Below the pieces are notes generated by a model. That model was not told the origin of the DNA, made no database searches, and worked only from the letters and a program-made list of their open reading frames with translations. Shown piece by piece: positions 23,321-49,136 of a stretch of 64,000 nucleotides of DNA. Origin of the DNA: Brevibacterium sp. UCMA 11754 (GTDB taxonomy: Bacteria > Actinomycetota > Actinomycetes > Actinomycetales > Brevibacteriaceae); contig NZ_JACBOT010000031.1 of assembly GCF_021532275.1 (NCBI RefSeq), forward strand, positions 248,001 to 312,000. Reading direction: 5' to 3'. Each line of letters opens with the position of its first letter. Position 1 is the first letter of the stretch. Position numbers and translations under genes: made by a program.

Positions 23321-33901
<10,581 letters not shown>

Positions 33902-38772: not shown

Positions 38773-40062
38773 TCAGGCTGCTCTGTTCGCTGCGCGAATG
38801 AGCACCACAGCGAGCAGCGCGCAGAGCAGGTAGACCAGTCCGACAACGGCCCAGCCCAGCGAGAAGCCACCGGGTGAGCTGACCAGCACGCCCATAGCCA
38901 CCGGCCCGAGGGCAAACCCGGTGAACATCCCGGCGGTGACCATTCCACTTGCCGACGCCATCGCGGTCGCGGGAATCGACCGCATGAGAGCGCTCATGAG
39001 AACGACAGAGACGCCGAGTGCCGAGGTGCCGTGCAGTGCCGCCGCGATCCACAGCAGCCACGGCCAGCCGGTAACACCAGCGGCGAAGAACAAGGCGGCA
39101 CCGGCGACGGCGATGAGCGCAAGAAGCAGTAGCACGCGGGGCCCGGATGCACCGCGGGCCATCTGCCTGGCCCAGCCGACTCGGGCGGCCACACCGATCG
39201 CACCGGCCACTGCGGCGGTGACACCGCCGAGCACGAGTGGAAAGTCCAACTCGCGCACGGAGAACAGCGGCATGTAGACGTTGGTTGCCTGGACACCGAT
39301 GCCGTTGAGCAGGCCGAAGGCCGCCAGCGCCCACATCATGCCCGGGTACCGCGGCGAGGCGGCTGGTGCGGGCGCCACCGGTGCGGCAGGACCAGCGGTG
39401 ACGTCGGCAGCCTCGGCGAGATCGGGGTTGCCAGGATCGGGTTCGCCGGGATCAGGTTCGGCAACCGGCGCCGACGTCTCGGCCAGCAGCGGTGCGGCAC
39501 GCAGCGCACGCCAGGTCATCACCATAAGGACGAGCGGGACGAGTGCGATGACCAGGGCCGCGCCCCGCCACCCTGCGGCCGCGGCCAGCAGCGGAAAGAC
39601 CACACTGGCCACCAGCTGGCTGACCTGCACCCCCGACTGCTTGATTCCCACCCAGCCGATCCGCTTCTGCACCGGAACTCGTTCGAGGAGGATCCGGTTG
39701 GTGACCCCGTTGGGGAAGGACTGTGCAATGCCCGACAGTGCTGCGGCGACGAGCAGCATTCCGAATCCTGCCGGGACCGCCACCAGCGCCAATGCCGCGG
39801 CGGCGAGTGCGAACACAATGGTCATGAGGAACATGTCCGAATGCCTGTCGGCGACACGCGCCAGTGTGGCGTTGCCGATGGCCGCACAGGTGAAGCAGGC
39901 GGTGGCCAGGAGACCGAATTGAGCCTCCGAGATGCCGAGGTCGACGATGATCGAGTCGCTGACAGCACTGAGTCCGTAGAGCAGCAGCGGTCCGGCACCG
40001 ACAGCGCCCAGCAGGACCGTCAGCATTCCCCTGCTCGGCCCCTGTTGTTCTCGACTATCCAC
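38773..40062 (-). CDS. MFS transporter (drug/efflux-like)
   Basis: A 429-aa protein with about 12 hydrophobic helices, a GTG start at 40062 and a central loop rich in Asp, Pro and Gly (VAEPDPGEPDPGNPDLAEA). The sequence between helices 2 and 3 (ARVADRHSD) matches the loose MFS motif of CynX/efflux-type carriers. Substrate and direction are unknown. It follows the M56 gene on the same strand after 90 bp but is unlikely to belong to that redox cluster. Confidence 0.8.
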   Translation of the reverse strand: MDSREQQGPSRGMLTVLLGAVGAGPLLLYGLSAVSDSIIVDLGISEAQFGLLATACFTCAAIGNATLARVADRHSDMFLMTIVFALAAAALALVAVPAGFGMLLVAAALSGIAQSFPNGVTNRILLERVPVQKRIGWVGIKQSGVQVSQLVASVVFPLLAAAAGWRGAALVIALVPLVLMVMTWRALRAAPLLAETSAPVAEPDPGEPDPGNPDLAEAADVTAGPAAPVAPAPAASPRYPGMMWALAAFGLLNGIGVQATNVYMPLFSVRELDFPLVLGGVTAAVAGAIGVAARVGWARQMARGASGPRVLLLLALIAVAGAALFFAAGVTGWPWLLWIAAALHGTSALGVSVVLMSALMRSIPATAMASASGMVTAGMFTGFALGPVAMGVLVSSPGGFSLGWAVVGLVYLLCALLAVVLIRAANRAA

Positions 40063-40155: not shown

Positions 40156-41142
40156 TCAGGGTATGGCGCATCCGGTGGCCAGCACCGTGGCGTAGGAGTA
40201 GAAGACTGAGGAGAAGACGGTGACGAATGCCGCGAGCACGCTGACCAGAGCCACCACCGGCAGTACCCCGGATGTCATAGTGGCCGGTGCGACCAGCTGT
40301 CGAATGCGGTCGGGCCCGGCGATATTGAGAGCATGGAGGCCGCCGAGGTGGTCGCTTTGGCTCGTGGGCTGCCCGATCTTGAGGAGAGCGCTGGCCAGAG
40401 CCGGTGTGCCGGCAACCTGCCGAGCTCGGTTGTCGGCAATGATCTCGAGATAGAGGGGAATGGAAGCAGCCACCTCGGCGAACAAGGGAATGAACGACAG
40501 CGGTCGCACGAAGGTGTCGGCGATTGCCATCACCCGATGATGCCCGCCCTCGACGTGGGCTCTTTCGTGCTCGAGCACGGCGGTGAGCTCATTCTTCTCC
40601 AAGGTCGCACACAAAGCTTCGGAGACGATCACACCGCCGTATTTCTGTGGCAGTGAGAACGCGAACGGGGCCCGACCATCGAGGACGTTCAGTGAATGCC
40701 CGTTGATATCGGCGACCGCCGAGCCCCGGCGCAGTCGCTGAGCTTCAGCCGAATTCGCCTGCCTGCGACGAGTCCGCTGATGCAGCGCCCAGACGGCGGA
40801 GACCACCGAGAGCACAAGCGGGAAGATGAGGAAGAGGACGACCGGGACCATTGTGTCGACCTGCGCCAGCCCGGGGAAGGGACTGGCTGCGATGAGGCAC
40901 CGCTGGCACACATCGGCAAGGGGAACGGGCAGAACGTCCGGACCCTTGAACAGCGAGGCCGCCATGAGGCTCAGCGCTGCCACGACGGCCCACCACATGA
41001 GGGACACCGACAGGAGCCCATACACGGCCAACCGCGGTACCCGCATGAGAACCGGCGCGGCCGTTCTCACGAGAAAAGGACCGATGAAGGAGATGAGGGC
41101 GAACAGAGCGACTGCGCCGGCGCCGATGAGCAGCAGACTCAT
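40156..41142 (-). CDS. M56 family membrane metallopeptidase (BlaR1/MecR1-like, no sensor domain)
   Basis: A 328-aa membrane protein with about five hydrophobic segments and the zinc-protease motif HERAH (192-196) in a cytoplasmic loop. This resembles the protease part of BlaR1/MecR1 but lacks the C-terminal penicillin-binding sensor, as in mycobacterial BlaR. It overlaps blaI by four bases. The expected role is to cleave or inactivate the BlaI repressor after an envelope signal. What it senses is unknown; the adjacent thiol-redox proteins suggest a redox or envelope-stress cue. Confidence 0.88.
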   Translation of the reverse strand: MSLLLIGAGAVALFALISFIGPFLVRTAAPVLMRVPRLAVYGLLSVSLMWWAVVAALSLMAASLFKGPDVLPVPLADVCQRCLIAASPFPGLAQVDTMVPVVLFLIFPLVLSVVSAVWALHQRTRRRQANSAEAQRLRRGSAVADINGHSLNVLDGRAPFAFSLPQKYGGVIVSEALCATLEKNELTAVLEHERAHVEGGHHRVMAIADTFVRPLSFIPLFAEVAASIPLYLEIIADNRARQVAGTPALASALLKIGQPTSQSDHLGGLHALNIAGPDRIRQLVAPATMTSGVLPVVALVSVLAAFVTVFSSVFYSYATVLATGCAIP

Positions 41143-41528
41143 CCGCGTTCATCCTTGGAGTTGAGATAGCTACGGAGGAGCTCGACGTCCTCGGCTCCGA
41201 TGCCTTCGACGAAGTGCAGGATCGATGCCGCCCGGTCTCCCCCGTTGAGCAGCGCCTTCTGCATGAGCGTCGCCGCATGCTCCTCGCGGCTGATGATCGG
41301 ACGGTGCAGCACCGATCGGCCCTGTCGCTCACGCCGCACGAGGCCCTTCCGCTCAAGGTTCGTCAGCACGGTCGCGATCGTTGTGTAGGCGGGAACATTG
41401 TCCAAGTCCTCAATGATCTGCCTGACCGTCAACGACCCCTCGTCCCACAGCAGGTCCATGACCTGCTGCTCGAGAGCACCGAGGCGAATCGGTGATGACT
41501 TCTCAGTCGAATCCGACGCTGATGTCAT
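41139..41528 (-). CDS. blaI: BlaI/MecI/CopY family repressor
   Basis: A 129-aa winged-helix repressor: LGALEQQVMDLLWDEGSLTV followed by RQIIEDLDNVPAYTTIATVLTNL and RKGLVRRERQGRSVLHRP, the standard DNA-binding domain, and a C-terminal dimerisation helix. BlaI proteins bind TACTAT-type dyads and are removed by their M56 partner, which is the next gene. The probable operator is at 42136-42173. The start overlaps the preceding membrane protein by four bases. Confidence 0.92.
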   Translation of the reverse strand: MTSASDSTEKSSPIRLGALEQQVMDLLWDEGSLTVRQIIEDLDNVPAYTTIATVLTNLERKGLVRRERQGRSVLHRPIISREEHAATLMQKALLNGGDRAASILHFVEGIGAEDVELLRSYLNSKDERG

Positions 41529-42100
41529 GACAGGCGGCTCCTTTCACGATTGGACACCGGGCAGGAGAACTGCCCCTTGAGGCGGACGACTACCGCGACC
41601 AGCAGCAGGATGACCGACAGCACCGCCAGCACAGGCTGCAGCGGCGCAAAGTATGTGAGAGCCCCAGTGTAGCCGAGCACCAGAAGCGCGATCTTGTTGC
41701 ACACGGGGCATCCGACGGCGAACCATCCGAGCATGCCGCCCACGGTGCCGAAGGTGCCGCCGCGACGTTCAGCCCTCTCATCGACTACGTCCTCATCGAC
41801 CAAGTCATCGTCGACCGCATCGGCAACGTCTTTGTTTCCACGGGAACCGGTTCTGCGAGGGCCGGGCTCGCGGACATAGGTGGCAATGAGAAGGCCCAAG
41901 AGGACCGACATGAGAATCCAGACCGGGTAGTCCCACCACTCGGGAGGGATGTCTCTGGAGAAGAAGGAGTTGGGAATCAGCACCGTGGACAATCCGATGA
42001 CGAAAACGGAAGCACCGGCCGCCGCGATGGCGACGACGATGCGGCGGGTGCCCCATATCCGAAGCGACTGGGCCGCCTCAGAGAGGTAGGAGAACAGCAT
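41525..42100 (-). CDS. Membrane protein with CPVC motif, first gene of the BlaI operon
   Basis: A 191-aa protein with about four hydrophobic helices, two in each half, and a long charged loop (about 78-115). Helix 3 opens with GWFAVGCPVCNKIALLVLG; the Cys131-Cys134 pair is a candidate redox-active site at the membrane, reminiscent of the CXXC of VKOR-type proteins but in a different context. A third Cys (180) lies near the end. It leads the operon with blaI and the M56 gene and faces the DsbA/CcdA genes across the shared regulatory region. I do not know a named family. Confidence 0.75.
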   Translation of the reverse strand: MLFSYLSEAAQSLRIWGTRRIVVAIAAAGASVFVIGLSTVLIPNSFFSRDIPPEWWDYPVWILMSVLLGLLIATYVREPGPRRTGSRGNKDVADAVDDDLVDEDVVDERAERRGGTFGTVGGMLGWFAVGCPVCNKIALLVLGYTGALTYFAPLQPVLAVLSVILLLVAVVVRLKGQFSCPVSNRERSRLS

Positions 42101-42135
42101 GAGGGTCCCTTCGTTGCGCAGCTTCGGACAAAACG

Positions 42136-42173
42136 TTTACTATGGAAGTTAGTATACTATGCCAGATAGTAAA
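42136..42173. promoter_or_regulatory. BlaI operator: nested dyads sharing one centre
   Basis: Outer arms TTTACTAT (42136-42143) and ATAGTAAA (42166-42173) and an inner perfect 10-bp palindrome TAGTATACTA (42150-42159) share the same dyad axis. TACTAT/ATAGTA units recur three times, as expected for BlaI/MecI boxes. It lies between the divergent membrane-protein/blaI/M56 and DsbA operons, 36 bp and 69 bp from the starts, so one repressor probably controls both. Confidence 0.75.
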
Positions 42174-42241
42174 GCTCCATGGCACGCTGCCTCGAATGCG
42201 TGCCGATCCGACTCCAACCCGACATTTTCAAGGAGGCTCCC

Positions 42242-42976
42242 GTGTTCCGTTCCGATCGCGGCCCCATGGTCTGGCTCGTGCCCTTAGCCGTCATCGTTCT
42301 CGCTACGGTGCTCATCGGCGTGGTCATCGCCAGCCAAGGCCCCTCTGACGACAGTGCGGACGCACACTCGCAGAGCGAAGCGGGTTCCGGCAGCGATTCA
42401 GGCTCCGAGGGCGAAGAGATCGACCTGTCGTTCGTCGAGCACCGGGTCGAAGACGACAGCCGCGCCGTCGGCGATGTCGATGCGCCGGTGACTCTCGTCA
42501 TGTTCTCCGACTACCAGTGCCCCTACTGCGCCACCTGGAACGAGGAGACATTGCCAACCATGATGGAATACGTCGACAAGGGTGATCTGCGCATTGAGAT
42601 GCGTGACCTCGCCGTCTTCGGTGAGGAGTCCGAAAGGGCGGCCCGGGCTGCCTATGCCGCCGGCCTCCAGGACAAATACTGGGAGTTCCACAATGCCATG
42701 TTCGAAGGCGGTGAGCACCCTCCGAAATCCGAGCTCGACGACGACTCACTGGTGTCCACCGCCAAGGAACTCGGCCTCGACCCCACCAAGTTCAAGGGAG
42801 ACCTGAATTCGGTCAACGCTCACGACGAGTTCGAGGCCAACGCCCAAGAGAGCTCTTCCCTGGGCGTGGCCAGCACCCCGACGTTCGTCATCGGCGGCAA
42901 ACCCCTCGTGGGTGCCCAACCGACCAAGGAATTCGTCGGTGCCGTCGACGATGCCCTCGCCGAGGCGGAAGGGTAA
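42242..42976 (+). CDS. Membrane-anchored DsbA-like thioredoxin-fold oxidoreductase (copy 1)
   Basis: A 244-aa protein: one N-terminal anchor helix (about 9-30), a Ser/Glu-rich linker, and a DsbA-type thioredoxin domain with SDYQCPYC (Cys93, Cys96) and the cis-proline loop VASTPTFVIGG. It should form or isomerise disulfides outside the membrane. GTG at 42242 is chosen because AAGGAGG lies 7 bases upstream. It is the first gene of the operon driven from the BlaI-type region. It resembles the second DsbA-like protein at 44304 in domain layout and active site. Confidence 0.9.
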   Translation: MFRSDRGPMVWLVPLAVIVLATVLIGVVIASQGPSDDSADAHSQSEAGSGSDSGSEGEEIDLSFVEHRVEDDSRAVGDVDAPVTLVMFSDYQCPYCATWNEETLPTMMEYVDKGDLRIEMRDLAVFGEESERAARAAYAAGLQDKYWEFHNAMFEGGEHPPKSELDDDSLVSTAKELGLDPTKFKGDLNSVNAHDEFEANAQESSSLGVASTPTFVIGGKPLVGAQPTKEFVGAVDDALAEAEG

Positions 42977-42982
42977 GGCGGC

Positions 42983-44236
42983 GTGCGACCACGACCCATC
43001 GCCTCAGCCGTTCTGCCACTCGCGCTCGCCGTCGTCCTGCCGCTCAGCGCTTGCTCTGCGTTCGTTTCGGAGTCCCAGTCGTCCGAGCCGAGCTCGGCTG
43101 GGTCACGAGCTCCGAGTTTCGATGCCGGTGAAGCTTTGAGTTCCAATCATGGTGAGGCAGACAGCGATTCCGCTGCGTCTCGCACCGTCGACCCGGGTTG
43201 GGACGCCTCCGCCCAGGAAGCGGACGGGACGTTCCTGTCGATGCACGAGAACGATGACAGCCTCGAATATCGTGCTGTCGATTCGACCGGGGAGGTCCTG
43301 TGGACTGCGCAGCGTCCACGAGCCTGTTCCGCTTATCTCGTCACCACAACCGATGATGGGCCCATTGCAGTCCTCATGGACCAAGACCTCTCGACCGGCA
43401 ACTCACTCACACCTACCGCTAGCGGCTATGACCTCAAGACCGGTCAGAAACAGTGGGGACCGGTGGAGACGCCCGGCGCAATGCTGGGCAACGGCCTCAT
43501 CTTCGCAGGCACACCGAAGGACTACATCGGACCCAGCGGTCCCCGCACCGCACTCGACCCGGCCACCGGAGACGTGGTCGCCGCCGAAGGAGAGGACGCA
43601 GGTGAAGGTGGCGACGCCTCGCCACGTGTGGTGGCACTGTTCGGTGAACATCTCGTTCGCAGCCAGGGCAGTGACATCGTCGGTGAGGATCTCGATGGAC
43701 AAGAGCGATGGAACCGAGCCGCCGAGGACTTCAGCATGTCAACGTCCGAGGCCAGGGAGGTGCCCTGGGAACCGATCGGCACCACTCATGCACTGCTGGG
43801 CGACGCCGGCAGCGACATGCGGACTCTGATCGACATGCGCTCGGGTGCCATCGTCGATTCCGAGATCGCTGGGGCCTGGTTCGATTCATCGAGCGACACC
43901 CTGGTCACGGTCGGGTCCGAACTGCACGGCTTCGACGCCGATGGGACCAATCGCTGGAGCACACCGCTGCCTGCCCACGCCGAGGTTTCCGCAGTGGGCG
44001 CAGGTCTCATCACCTTCGACTCAGAGAGTGGGAGCGAGCCGGAGAACGAGAGCGACTCGGACCAGGAGGAGCAGTCAGTCACAGCCAGATCCGCTCGCGA
44101 CGGCAGTCCCATCAAGAAGGACACTCCACTGCTCAAGGCGACCAAGCAGCTCGGAGCCCCACACCACATCTCCGAATCCGGTGCCGCGCTCATCGGTGAT
44201 CCACAGACACCGCTGTTGATCACGAGTCAGGAATGA
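42983..44236 (+). CDS. Secreted lipoprotein with PQQ-type beta-propeller features (copy 1)
   Basis: A 417-aa protein with a lipoprotein signal (LPLSAC, lipidated Cys24) and repeating segments such as STGEVLWTAQRP, YDLKTGQKQWGP and DADGTNRWSTPLP, which look like blades of a PQQ/BamB-like propeller. It begins six bases after the DsbA stop (GTG start). It shares a matching series of segments with the lipoprotein at 45991 (AVDSxGxxLWxAQRP, AYDLxTGxxxWGP), so the two are paralogues. The role is unknown; it may dock clients or peptidoglycan near the redox proteins. Confidence 0.78.
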   Translation: MRPRPIASAVLPLALAVVLPLSACSAFVSESQSSEPSSAGSRAPSFDAGEALSSNHGEADSDSAASRTVDPGWDASAQEADGTFLSMHENDDSLEYRAVDSTGEVLWTAQRPRACSAYLVTTTDDGPIAVLMDQDLSTGNSLTPTASGYDLKTGQKQWGPVETPGAMLGNGLIFAGTPKDYIGPSGPRTALDPATGDVVAAEGEDAGEGGDASPRVVALFGEHLVRSQGSDIVGEDLDGQERWNRAAEDFSMSTSEAREVPWEPIGTTHALLGDAGSDMRTLIDMRSGAIVDSEIAGAWFDSSSDTLVTVGSELHGFDADGTNRWSTPLPAHAEVSAVGAGLITFDSESGSEPENESDSDQEEQSVTARSARDGSPIKKDTPLLKATKQLGAPHHISESGAALIGDPQTPLLITSQE

Positions 44237-44276
44237 ACGTGGCAGCACTGGCCCGCCACGACATGCACTTTATTAA

Positions 44277-44288
44277 GTTTCATAGTAA
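44277..44288. promoter_or_regulatory. Possible BlaI half-site before the second DsbA-like gene
   Basis: GTTTCATAGTAA, read on the minus strand as TTACTATGAAAC, matches the outer arm of the main operator (TTACTATGGAAG) at ten of twelve positions. It lies 16 bp before the ATG at 44304 and suggests that this part of the operon can be separately controlled. Confidence 0.45.
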
Positions 44289-44303
44289 TTCAGGAGTGGT
44301 GAT

Positions 44304-45044
44304 ATGCCGAGACACGAAGCGCTCAGACCCCAATACCGTTGGTGGATACCCCTCGTGGTCATCGCCTCGGCCCTGGCTCTCGTGCTCATGATCCTCTTCA
44401 TGGATCGAGAGCAGGGCGACGATTCTGGCCAGACCACCGCCGGACAGAAGGAGTCGGATGTCGTCGTCACCGAGGTCGAGGATCCCCAGCAGAAGGATGT
44501 CAGCGATTTCGACAGCGACGATGACGACCCTCTGGCCGACGGTCCGGTGGATGCTCCGGTTACTCTCGTCGTCTTCTCCGACTATCAGTGCCCGTACTGT
44601 GCGGCCTGGTCTCAGGACACTCTGCCGAAGATGCTCGACTACGTCGACTCCGATGATCTGCGCATCGAATGGCGCGAGGTCAACGTCTTCGGCTCCGCGT
44701 CCGAACAGGCCGCCAAGGCGGCATACGCAGCCGCCCTGCAGGAAAAGCACTGGGAGTTCCACGAGAAGCTGTTCGCCGGAGGCAAACCACGTCCGCCGGA
44801 GGAGCTCTCTCCCGAAGCGCTGACATCCGTGGCCGCCGATATCGGCCTCGACATGAACCAGTTCGAGAAGGACATGAACTCCTCTGAAACAGCCGCGGCT
44901 GTCGACAAGAACGCCAAGATGGGCACCGAACTCGGCGCCTTCTCGACTCCGACGTTCATCCTCGGCGATCAACCCTACGTCGGAGCCCAGCCCACCAGCG
45001 TCTTCGTCGACGCCATAGAACAGAAATTGGAAGGAGCGAACTGA
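44304..45044 (+). CDS. Membrane-anchored DsbA-like thioredoxin-fold oxidoreductase (copy 2)
   Basis: A 246-aa paralogue of the protein at 42242: N-terminal anchor (about 14-33), an acidic linker, and a DsbA-like domain with SDYQCPYC (Cys96, Cys99) and FSTPTFILGDQPYVGAQP. The stop overlaps the ccdA start by one base, so electron supply from CcdA is likely coupled to it. With CcdA it might act as a reductant rather than an oxidant, while copy 1 may have the opposite task; this is inference. Confidence 0.9.
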   Translation: MPRHEALRPQYRWWIPLVVIASALALVLMILFMDREQGDDSGQTTAGQKESDVVVTEVEDPQQKDVSDFDSDDDDPLADGPVDAPVTLVVFSDYQCPYCAAWSQDTLPKMLDYVDSDDLRIEWREVNVFGSASEQAAKAAYAAALQEKHWEFHEKLFAGGKPRPPEELSPEALTSVAADIGLDMNQFEKDMNSSETAAAVDKNAKMGTELGAFSTPTFILGDQPYVGAQPTSVFVDAIEQKLEGAN

Positions 45045-45991
45045 TGGACATCGGTTTACTCAGCGCTTTCATCGGCGGAGTCCTCGCACTGCTCAGCCCG
45101 TGCGCGGCGCTGCTGCTGCCGGCCTTCTTCGGCTCCACGGTAGGGGCCGGGTCACGACTGCTGCTCCACGGTGTCATCTTCTACGTTGGAATGCTGCTCG
45201 TCCTCATCCCCCTGGGGATGGGAGCAGGAACCCTGGGAGCAATCTTCACGGCCTATCGCGGAACGATCGTCCTCGTCGCCTCGGTGATCCTCGTCATCCT
45301 CGGCATCGTCCAGTTCTTCGGATTCGGGTTCGACCCCGCTCGGGCGCTGCCGGGTGCCGACGCCATGAGGTCGAAGTCCGCAACGGCGACAGGAGCAACG
45401 AAGACCTTCCTCCTGGGTGCCACGAGCGGGATTGCCGGAATCTGCTCCGGGCCCATCCTCGGCGCGGTCCTGACTCTGGCGGCTACGAGAGGCAGCGTAT
45501 TCCTCGGCGGTGTGATGCTGGCGATCTATGGTGCCGGCATGGTCGTGCCGCTGTTCATCATCGCGGCCCTGTGGTCGCGGATGGGGCCGCGAGCCAGGTC
45601 GGTCATGCGCGGAGGCTCGGTCAACTTCTTCGGCCGCCGGCTACCCATCATCTCGATGATCACCGGAGCCCTGATGATCCTCATCGGCATCGTGTTCTGG
45701 ATGACGAATGGTCTGGTCTCGGCACCGTCTCTGGTTTCAACCTCAACCCTTGCCCATATTCAGGAATGGGCGAGCTCCTGGACGTCGACCACGGTCGACA
45801 TCCTCGTCGTCTGCCTGTTGGCAGTCGTCGCCATCGCCCTGTGGTTCCGGCATGAACGCCGTCGCAATAGGGACAGGACGGGCAGGGACGAGAGTCAGGA
45901 GCAGACAGAGACTGCGACCGGATCGGAGACAGAGACCGGGCCGGAGACCGCGAAGGCACCGAACCGGGTCAGAGACGAGCGAAGGCCCTGA
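45044..45991 (+). CDS. ccdA: CcdA/DsbD-type thiol:disulfide transporter
   Basis: A 315-aa protein with six to seven membrane helices. The redox pair typical of CcdA is Cys20 (LLSPCAALLLPAFFG) in helix 1 and Cys134 (AGICSGPILGAVLTLA) in helix 4. CcdA carries electrons from cytoplasmic thioredoxin across the membrane to extracytoplasmic thioredoxin-fold proteins. The C-terminus is a charged, Glu/Thr-rich tail. It starts within the DsbA-like stop and ends overlapping the second lipoprotein start. The partner is most likely the DsbA-like protein just upstream. Confidence 0.9.
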   Translation: MDIGLLSAFIGGVLALLSPCAALLLPAFFGSTVGAGSRLLLHGVIFYVGMLLVLIPLGMGAGTLGAIFTAYRGTIVLVASVILVILGIVQFFGFGFDPARALPGADAMRSKSATATGATKTFLLGATSGIAGICSGPILGAVLTLAATRGSVFLGGVMLAIYGAGMVVPLFIIAALWSRMGPRARSVMRGGSVNFFGRRLPIISMITGALMILIGIVFWMTNGLVSAPSLVSTSTLAHIQEWASSWTSTTVDILVVCLLAVVAIALWFRHERRRNRDRTGRDESQEQTETATGSETETGPETAKAPNRVRDERRP

Positions 45992-47163
45992 TGGCCAGGC
46001 GAGGACTCGTCAGTCTGACCATCGCGCTGACCACCACACTGGCTCTCCTTGGCTGCACCTCGGCCGAGGAACCGCCCGAGCTCGAACGCGAACCGAAGCA
46101 GGTCGACACGAAGCTCGATGCGGTCGATGCCTCCGACCTGCAGCTGCCGCTGATCGTCGAACCGCTCGAACTCGTGGAACCGGACTGGGACCTCGACGTC
46201 AAGCACCTCGGCGATGTCTTCCTGTCCGCAGGCAGCAGCGAGGATCGGCTGAACTTCAGCGCCGTCGACAGCAACGGCACCACCCTGTGGCAGGCCCAGC
46301 GACCTACGGGCTGCACCGGGTTCACCGTGACCGCCGACAGTGAGGGGAAACCGCTGGCGGTGCTCACCGACTCGGCATCTGACGAAAGCTGCAGCACCGA
46401 GGTGACGGCGAGCGCCTATGACCTGGAAACGGGCGAACAGAAGTGGGGCCCGACAGACGTGCCCGGTCCGCTGCAAGGCCCGGGAACGGTCTTCTCGCCC
46501 GCCGACGATGACGGCGACACCGATGACGGAGAAGCTGTGGCACTCGACTCTGACTCCGGTGAAGTCGCAGATGAGGAATCCTCGACCTCGCGCGTCCTCG
46601 GCGAGTATCAGGGGACGATCCTCAGTGTTGATCAGGACACTCTCTCCGCCTCGGACGGAGGAGACACCGCGTGGGAGATTCCGCTGGCGGATCACGACTG
46701 GAGCGTCGAGGGGCTTACAGCCTTCCCCGAACAGGTCGACGGTCTCATTCACCTCGATGCCGACGATGGGTCCGGGCCCGTCATCGATGCAGAAACTGGT
46801 GATGTCCTCGACGAGTCCGCCAGCGAGATCGCTCGAGATGCGAACTCGGAGTTGATCATCACGAGGGACGAGCAGGGCCTGACGGTCATCGATGAGACGG
46901 GCACGAACGAACTGCCAGTCTCTCTGCCCGAGCCCGTGGTCTTAGAGGCTGCCGTCGGCGGGCTCATCTACCTGCGCGAGGGCGAGAGTCTGCGGGTCCA
47001 CAACGCAGCCACCGGCAGCTTCGCCAGGGGCTACCCTGCCGAGGGCTCGGGCATCGTGGCAGTTCCCGACGTCTTCACATCGACGGGTGTGGGTACTCTT
47101 CGAGCCGGAGACCGGACCCTGCTGGCCACAGACAGGGTGGTCGAGGAATCCACAGAAGGTTAG
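45991..47163 (+). CDS. Secreted lipoprotein with PQQ-type beta-propeller features (copy 2)
   Basis: A 390-aa lipoprotein (lipobox LALLGC, Cys22) and the last gene of the redox operon. It carries propeller-like segments (AVDSNGTTLWQAQRP, YDLETGEQKWGP, DGGDTAWEIPLAD) that line up with those of the lipoprotein at 42983, plus a conserved Cys in the CTGF stretch near residue 109. It overlaps ccdA by one base. The duplicated DsbA-lipoprotein arrangement suggests that each redox protein has its own lipoprotein partner. No enzymatic motif is visible. Confidence 0.78.
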   Translation: MARRGLVSLTIALTTTLALLGCTSAEEPPELEREPKQVDTKLDAVDASDLQLPLIVEPLELVEPDWDLDVKHLGDVFLSAGSSEDRLNFSAVDSNGTTLWQAQRPTGCTGFTVTADSEGKPLAVLTDSASDESCSTEVTASAYDLETGEQKWGPTDVPGPLQGPGTVFSPADDDGDTDDGEAVALDSDSGEVADEESSTSRVLGEYQGTILSVDQDTLSASDGGDTAWEIPLADHDWSVEGLTAFPEQVDGLIHLDADDGSGPVIDAETGDVLDESASEIARDANSELIITRDEQGLTVIDETGTNELPVSLPEPVVLEAAVGGLIYLREGESLRVHNAATGSFARGYPAEGSGIVAVPDVFTSTGVGTLRAGDRTLLATDRVVEESTEG

Positions 47164-47978: not shown

Positions 47979-49136
47979 ATGTTGCTCGAACGAATCTACG
48001 ATGAGGACCTATCTCACGCGAGCTAATTCATCGGCTGTCAGGCCACCGGCGACGCCATCGTCATCGTCATCGACCCCAGTCGGGACATCAGCGCCTACCT
48101 GGAGCTGGCCGAAGCCAAAGGAATGCGCATCGCCCACGTCACCGAGACGCACATTCACGCCGATTTCTTCTCCGGTACTCGAGAATTGGCCGATTCCACC
48201 GGCGCAACTGCCCATCTGCCCGGTGAAGGCGGAGCTGACTGGCAATACGGGCACGAGGGCGAACGCTTGGCCGACGGTTACACCATCACAGTCGGCTACG
48301 AACGCAGCTTCTCCTGGTGGGGCCACCATCTTGCGGCCGGCGATGAGCAGGGTTTCATCGACGAGCTCTTAGACGGACAGCCGGATGCTCCTTCCTATTT
48401 CGGTCGCATGAAACGACAGAACCTGGAAGGGCCTGCGATTCTCGGTCCACAGTCGGTGCTGCCAGAACTGAGTGTCACTGCAGTCCGCGAGGGCCTGGCG
48501 AACGCCGCTGTGACCCTCATCGACACCAGGGATCAGCACGGTGTCCATGCGGGCGCGGTTCGGGACGCGATCAACATTCCGGCCTGGAACAAGCCTGCCG
48601 TCCATGCGGGCTGGGTGCTGGATCCGAAGTCCGATACTCGGCCTCTCGTGCTTCTGACCGACGGCTCGGACACCGCTCACCACCTACGAAATCACCTCAT
48701 TCGGGTCGGCATCGACACAGTTGAAGGCTATGTCACCGCCACCGACGGACTCCCCGCAGCTGTCCCCGATCTGGTGGGGCCGGACGACCTCGACTCGACT
48801 GATTACGAGATGCTCCTCGATGTACGCAACGCATCGGAATTCGCGCAGGGCACGATCCCCGGCGCAGTGCAGCTGAGTGCGGGGCGGGTCCTGTGGCATC
48901 AGGATCGGCTGCCAGCTTCGGGCACGATCCTCAGCTTCTGCCAGAGCGGTGTGCGCAACTCGGTGGCTTCCAGCGCTCTGCGGCGAGCCGGGCACCGCGT
49001 CATCGAACTCGAAGGCAGCTATCTCGGCTGGCAGGCGGCCCAGCAGAGGCAAGGGCTCCAGGTGCAGCGACCCGATGGGCCACAATCACCTTGGCCGGAA
49101 TCGGGCCGGGGCTCAGGCAACCCGCTCCGGGTATGA
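47979..49136 (+). pseudogene. Decayed metallo-beta-lactamase/rhodanese fusion (persulfide dioxygenase-like)
   Basis: From an ATG at 47979 the frame begins MLLERIYDEDLSHAS, then TAA at 48024 where relatives have Tyr, then FIGCQATGDAIVIVIDP. After this, THIHADFFSGTRELA keeps part of the MBL metal motif, but the sequence jumps from DGYTITVG to YERSFSWWG, skipping most of the MBL core with its other metal ligands. Two rhodanese-like domains follow: the first lacks a catalytic Cys, the second keeps it (FCQSGVRNS). The deletion joins two places that both would read TVG, which suggests recombination at a short repeat. An internal ATG at 48123 could still give the rhodanese part. Confidence 0.82.

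Follow-up and report, generated by a model that had tools for sequence, protein, structure and literature searches.

A proposed BlaI/M56 switch beside envelope thiol-redox genes in Brevibacterium, with a candidate thiol sensor and a possible tie to reactive sulfur

Introduction

What does a repressor-protease pair of the penicillin-sensing kind respond to when its protease carries no penicillin-binding domain and its neighbours encode thiol proteins? The question is raised by eight genes at positions 40156 to 47163 of a 64,000-nucleotide stretch of Brevibacterium sp. UCMA 11754 (contig NZ_JACBOT010000031.1), referred to below as the window. A CPVC membrane protein, a BlaI-type repressor and an M56 protease are encoded on the minus strand, facing genes for DsbA1, lipoprotein 1, DsbA2, CcdA and lipoprotein 2 on the opposite strand. 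For BlaI/M56 pairs without a penicillin-binding domain no settled input is known to us, the literature not having been searched systematically. We read the cluster as a BlaR1-type protease/repressor switch equipped with a thiol sensor, which would control a set of genes for thiol repair in the envelope, with a link to reactive sulfur; the probability of this reading is roughly 0.5.

Results

The best 80 of 181 relatives of the CPVC protein in a scan of GTDB genomes, together with the window, gave 81 loci; as these were picked via the CPVC gene, all locus fractions below are valid for that set. The original prediction had proposed a co-occurrence search for CPVC, BlaI, M56, DsbA and CcdA, and across these loci the association indeed recurs: BlaI is present in 60, DsbA in 59, CcdA in 58, M56 in 52 and a lipoprotein in 36. 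Wherever both genes of a pair are found, BlaI and M56 are adjacent on one strand (52/52), as are CPVC and BlaI in 58 of 60 loci; DsbA and CcdA are always adjacent (57/57), and CPVC and DsbA are divergent in 54/57. The order is conserved well beyond this strain, with the CPVC-BlaI core in 19 named actinobacterial genera and M56 in 15 (tallied by hand from record titles), including Brevibacterium, Nesterenkonia, Leucobacter, Nocardia, Rhodococcus, Microbacterium, Brachybacterium and Nocardiopsis. The DsbA-lipoprotein-DsbA-CcdA-lipoprotein arrangement is confined to Brevibacterium among the 81 loci. Thioredoxin-like genes adjoin the cluster in L041, L044, L055, L059 and L078, mainly in Leucobacter.

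Candidate operators offer a closer view of the regulation. The promoter shared by the divergent operons holds two abutting 17-bp palindromes (boxes 1 and 2, Table 1). Between 450 bp upstream of the CPVC start and 30 bp inside the gene, such a box occurs with at most two mismatches in 60/60 BlaI-bearing loci, with at most one in 55 and exactly in 31. Palindromes with scrambled arms (n = 29, same loci) reached at most 3/60 loci at one mismatch. Only two of the 21 loci without BlaI carry a box, L069 and L034, the latter on a short contig that may stop before BlaI. When the DsbA-CcdA unit lies apart from CPVC, a box stands 36-104 bp before the DsbA domain in 8/8 loci checked. Among 57 Brevibacterium genomes, the exact longer form TACTAT-N5-ATAGTA occurs once in each of 14, at 0.95-1.07 kb from this M56, and was not found in the 35 genomes without this M56; it is missing from 8 of the 22 genomes that have the protease, and the reversed control pattern matched 6 genomes. 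The window BlaI itself passes Penicillinase_R (90.2 bits against a cut-off of 22.6, 1.5e-25), and its H105-F106 aligns with the cleavage site of S. aureus BlaI (PMC9834060). As the candidate operators track both BlaI-bearing loci and this M56, control of the cluster by BlaI is strongly supported and, on these sequence patterns, very probable. The proposal of one module of conserved order under a BlaI-type repressor has held up. Identity with CopY, a repressor with a C-terminal cysteine metal motif, was considered for the window BlaI and rejected: the protein is cysteine-free and scores 36.8 bits with the CopY model TIGR02698, below its cut-off of 122.

The M56 protein is a likely site of signal input. 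Its gluzincin motifs H192ExxH196 and E233xxxD237 provide five residues (H192, E193, H196, E233, D237) that are invariant in 52 rows. By profile it scores over the cut-off for M48 (3e-9) and under it for Peptidase_M56 (0.0015; 18.2 of 31 bits); its orthologues are named M56 by NCBI, many homologues (one at 77% identity, for example) carry a precomputed M56 match, and its structure model aligns with BlaR1, which may reflect a shared membrane scaffold and protease fold. An invariant C79xxC82 lies between helices 2 and 3, the position of the BlaR1 extracellular loop (EL1), and a further conserved cysteine, C325, is found at the C-terminal end. None of 17 outside M56 relatives has a CxxC at the loop position. 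A penicillin-binding sensor domain is not present, as had been predicted: the 328-residue protein ends five residues past its last predicted helix, which closes at 323. The protease had also been proposed to sense thiol or envelope stress in a system of disulfide oxidation or repair. Given invariant cysteines in a protein without penicillin-binding domain, thiol sensing stands as a good inference, and the cysteine triad is likely to be the sensor; either oxidation or repair would fit the sequence.

Two further observations concern M56 relatives. Eight of ten unlinked actinobacterial ones (L146-L155) have a loop cysteine and a C-terminal cysteine, and these two might possibly form a general disulfide of sensor-less M56 proteins. 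The genome of the window has a second BlaI/M56 pair (L102, contig C12, 5416-6690), whose M56 has no loop cysteines and which adjoins genes that, by eye, resemble cytochrome bd oxidase subunits.

A form of the cluster without the protease is also found. Eight BlaI-bearing loci have no adjoining M56, and the best M56 match in their genomes reaches 109 bits, against 421 for the M56 of the window. In six of these eight, BlaI has cysteines at positions 82 and 102, a pair seen in 0/52 M56-partnered BlaI proteins, 17 of which have other cysteines. The six are related (Micrococcaceae-type), so the pair may reflect one event. With the protease gone and two cysteines present in the BlaI of one lineage, the repressor itself has probably taken over sensing there.

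The surroundings of the cluster hint at the nature of the signal. A persulfide dioxygenase-rhodanese gene occurs in 11/81 loci, 10 of them with BlaI; a total of 28 such genes over 20 genomes (~75 Mb) and the 1.16 Mb of locus DNA read would predict about 0.43. Often these loci also have a rhodanese, TauE or a CsoR-like repressor. Over all 81 loci, other neighbours are TauE (8), CsoR-like proteins (8), DUF302 (7), DsrE (6) and a sulfide-quinone-reductase-like protein (4). In S. coelicolor the sensing and removal of sulfane sulfur are carried out by a CsoR-like factor, a persulfide dioxygenase, a rhodanese and a sulfite transporter (PMC7533328). That reactive sulfur is the natural signal is plausible at somewhat less than even odds. 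Two points weigh against the tie to sulfur: 70/81 loci have no persulfide dioxygenase in the stretch read, and a CPVC relative on a Rubrobacter plasmid is located among metal genes. The sole dioxygenase match of the window's own genome, which adjoins the cluster, looks broken, intact copies being found elsewhere.

The module is accessory, as seen from its distribution: among 246 genomes drawn evenly from the phylum, 20 have CPVC and 2 have an M56 of this group (defined as > 400 bits), both times beside CPVC, and 22 of the 57 Brevibacterium genomes have this M56. It is also plasmid-borne. CPVC relatives occur in 41 plasmid records, five of which were examined; two carry the module (Arthrobacter, Microbacterium), and three have the CPVC gene with no BlaI listed nearby (Streptomyces, Rhodococcus, Rubrobacter). 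The Streptomyces and Rhodococcus plasmid genes stand without BlaI, DsbA and CcdA, as does the CPVC gene in L029, L040, L042, L062, L069, L083 and other loci.

In the window all eight genes are open where the original prediction had placed them, with 4-base overlaps at BlaI-CPVC and M56-BlaI; only the start of DsbA1 probably shifts from ATG to the GTG listed in Table 1, because AAGGAGG at 42230 precedes it. The closest named relative among the best 80 loci is B. antiquum DSM 21545, its CPVC protein being 98% identical. Both DsbA-like proteins match Thioredoxin_4/DSBA and CcdA matches DsbD_TM (7e-15), whereas the PQQ/BamB match of lipoprotein 1 falls below the Pfam cut-off, and lipoprotein 2 and the CPVC protein have nothing above it. 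Cysteines are well kept: C131, C134 and C180 of the CPVC protein in 81/81 rows, C20 and C134 of CcdA in 58/58 and 57/58, and C115 of lipoprotein 1 in 45/48 occupied rows. Elsewhere in the window, an MFS transporter gene at 38773-40062 adjoins M56 (present in 10 loci, Brevibacterium only), and 23321-33901 encodes a 3,526-residue non-ribosomal peptide synthetase, in which condensation, AMP-binding and carrier domains each occur as three stretches, together with a thioesterase.

Table 1. Features of the cluster and its flank, in window coordinates
Feature	Position	Strand	Basis or remark
M56 (BlaR1-like) membrane zinc protease, 328 residues	40156..41142	-	Pfam, alignment, helix prediction, model
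BlaI-type repressor, 129 residues, cysteine-free	41139..41528	-	Pfam, alignment
CPVC membrane protein, 191 residues, without Pfam family	41525..42100	-	alignment of 81 rows
Operator box 1 (putative), TACTA-N7-TAGTA, exact	42138..42154	.	motif search
Operator box 2 (putative), TACTAT-N5-ATAGTA, exact, abuts box 1	42155..42171	.	motif search
DsbA-like protein 1, predicted membrane-anchored, CPYC	42179..42976, likely start GTG 42242	+	Pfam
Lipoprotein 1, weak BamB-type propeller match	42983..44236	+	sub-cut-off Pfam, alignment
Operator box 3 (putative), one mismatch, upstream of DsbA2 gene	44271..44287	.	motif search
DsbA-like protein 2, CPYC	44304..45044	+	Pfam
CcdA/DsbD-type membrane protein	45044..45991	+	Pfam, alignment
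Lipoprotein 2, related to lipoprotein 1	45991..47163	+	locus comparison
Persulfide dioxygenase-rhodanese gene, neighbour	47979..49052	+	two pieces, different frames, one stop

Discussion

The following sequence of events would account for the cluster. At rest, BlaI would repress both divergent gene sets by binding the TACTA-N7-TAGTA boxes. Reactive sulfur or oxidation would modify the three M56 cysteines, whose predicted place is the outer face, and the protease thus activated would cut BlaI near H105-F106, so that its loss turns both sets on. CcdA would then pass electrons to the DsbA-like proteins for envelope thiol repair, and we lean towards this reducing direction for the pair. The CPVC protein is predicted to act as a second membrane thiol carrier, its cysteines toward the cytoplasmic side. 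The induced DsbA/CcdA pair might finally reduce the M56 CxxC and reset the switch. In its most specific version, which we offer tentatively, reactive sulfur from outside would re-wire a disulfide between the CxxC and the third cysteine of M56, BlaI would be destroyed and DsbA/CcdA would re-reduce the receptor and so switch it off, and where the protease was lost the sensor cysteines would have come to lie in the repressor.

The same genes could instead serve a response to copper or another soft metal, with the M56 cysteines binding Cu(I) and DsbA/CcdA guarding or repairing envelope thiols in the manner of ScsC/ScsB. CopY is among the relatives of BlaI, DsbA2 weakly matches the 'suppression of copper sensitivity' chain (1.3e-5), and the Rubrobacter plasmid CPVC relative mentioned above lies by a four-helix copper-binding protein, a cation diffusion facilitator and metal-type regulators, though also by a rhodanese. 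Copper-type CsoR uses a third-ligand His, which is absent from 7 of the 8 CsoR-like neighbours; moreover, what could be recognised by eye among the recurrent neighbours (families in at least 5 of 81 loci) was of the persulfide kind and included neither a copper ATPase nor a chaperone. Even with the precedent of ScsC, a Cu(I)-binding protein that ScsB maintains in the reduced state (PMC8900818), copper as the signal is unlikely.

A classical cell-wall or beta-lactam switch as in staphylococci, in which the cysteines would do no more than link loop and C-terminus and the folding of envelope proteins under wall stress would fall to the thiol enzymes, would suit the kind of signalling to which BlaI and M56 belong, as well as the loop and C-terminal cysteines of the unlinked relatives. 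It is very doubtful in view of an M56 without penicillin-binding domain, outputs that are thiol proteins, a CxxC not seen in the 17 outside relatives and the cysteine pair in BlaI of six of the eight M56-less loci. Sulfane-sulfur uptake and oxidation would be a role other than repair: DsbA would take polysulfide sulfur outside, CcdA and the CPVC protein would hand it inward to DsrE or rhodanese, persulfide dioxygenase would form sulfite and TauE export it. TauE, rhodanese and persulfide dioxygenase adjoin several loci, and DsrE is present in 5/8 M56-less loci; its gene comes immediately after that of CcdA in L053, in L057 and on the Arthrobacter plasmid. However, none of the 52 M56-bearing loci has DsrE (6/81 overall), and sulfur transfer through CcdA-type proteins is, to our knowledge, not established. 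Although the plasmid authors proposed energy gain from sulfur oxidation (PMC6305408), we consider this role quite improbable for the cluster. The thiol-sensing switch with its repair module remains the preferred reading; in the cysteine triad at the BlaR1 loop position it offers a candidate input specific enough to test, and both its operator sites and its output genes are defined.

Among known systems, BlaR1-BlaI of S. aureus is a close counterpart of the switch. The present M56 differs in having no penicillin-binding sensor domain and in its invariant CxxC at the EL1 position with a C-terminal cysteine, the outputs are thiol proteins, and the operator arms are TACTA with N7, not of the TACA/TGTA type of the bla operator. 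For CopY, the operator is given as TACANNTGTA in an abstract. ScsB-ScsC likewise pairs a thioredoxin-fold protein with a DsbD/CcdA-type membrane electron carrier, and this pairing is found in 57/57 loci, where a CxxC thioredoxin-fold gene adjoins a DsbD_TM carrier with a Cys pair. That system is Gram-negative and copper-linked, and we know of no BlaI/M56 control for it; ScsB also has two additional periplasmic domains (PMC8900818).

The earlier statement that no system of this composition had been described needs correction, as an M56-less version from Arthrobacter plasmids had been catalogued in 2018 under the name 'CYT' module, tied to sulfur oxidation and paired with a 'SUL' module (PMC6305408). 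On pA40H2/pA58H2 it shares BlaI, CPVC ('hypothetical protein' in the record), DsbA and CcdA with the present cluster, but has no M56 and includes DsrE; in the pA58H2 record these genes stand beside a sulfane-sulfur set, and the surroundings comprise persulfide dioxygenase, rhodaneses, TauE, CsoR-like protein and DUF302. Two CcdA are given for it in the paper, against one in the record, and the 'CYT' section of the paper is a gene list without operator, sensor or cysteine analysis. New here are the operators, the three M56 cysteines, the association with persulfide/sulfane-sulfur genes and a lineage in which BlaI has cysteines and M56 is missing.

Relatives of the genes of the S. coelicolor sulfane-sulfur circuit recur beside the present cluster. 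That circuit is CsoR-controlled and handles intracellular sulfane sulfur, and the available text of PMC7533328 does not mention BlaI, DsbA or CcdA. The cluster may thus be the counterpart, on the envelope side, of this known circuit in Actinomycetota and, if our reading is true, a switch of the penicillin-sensor type that has been turned to thiol chemistry.
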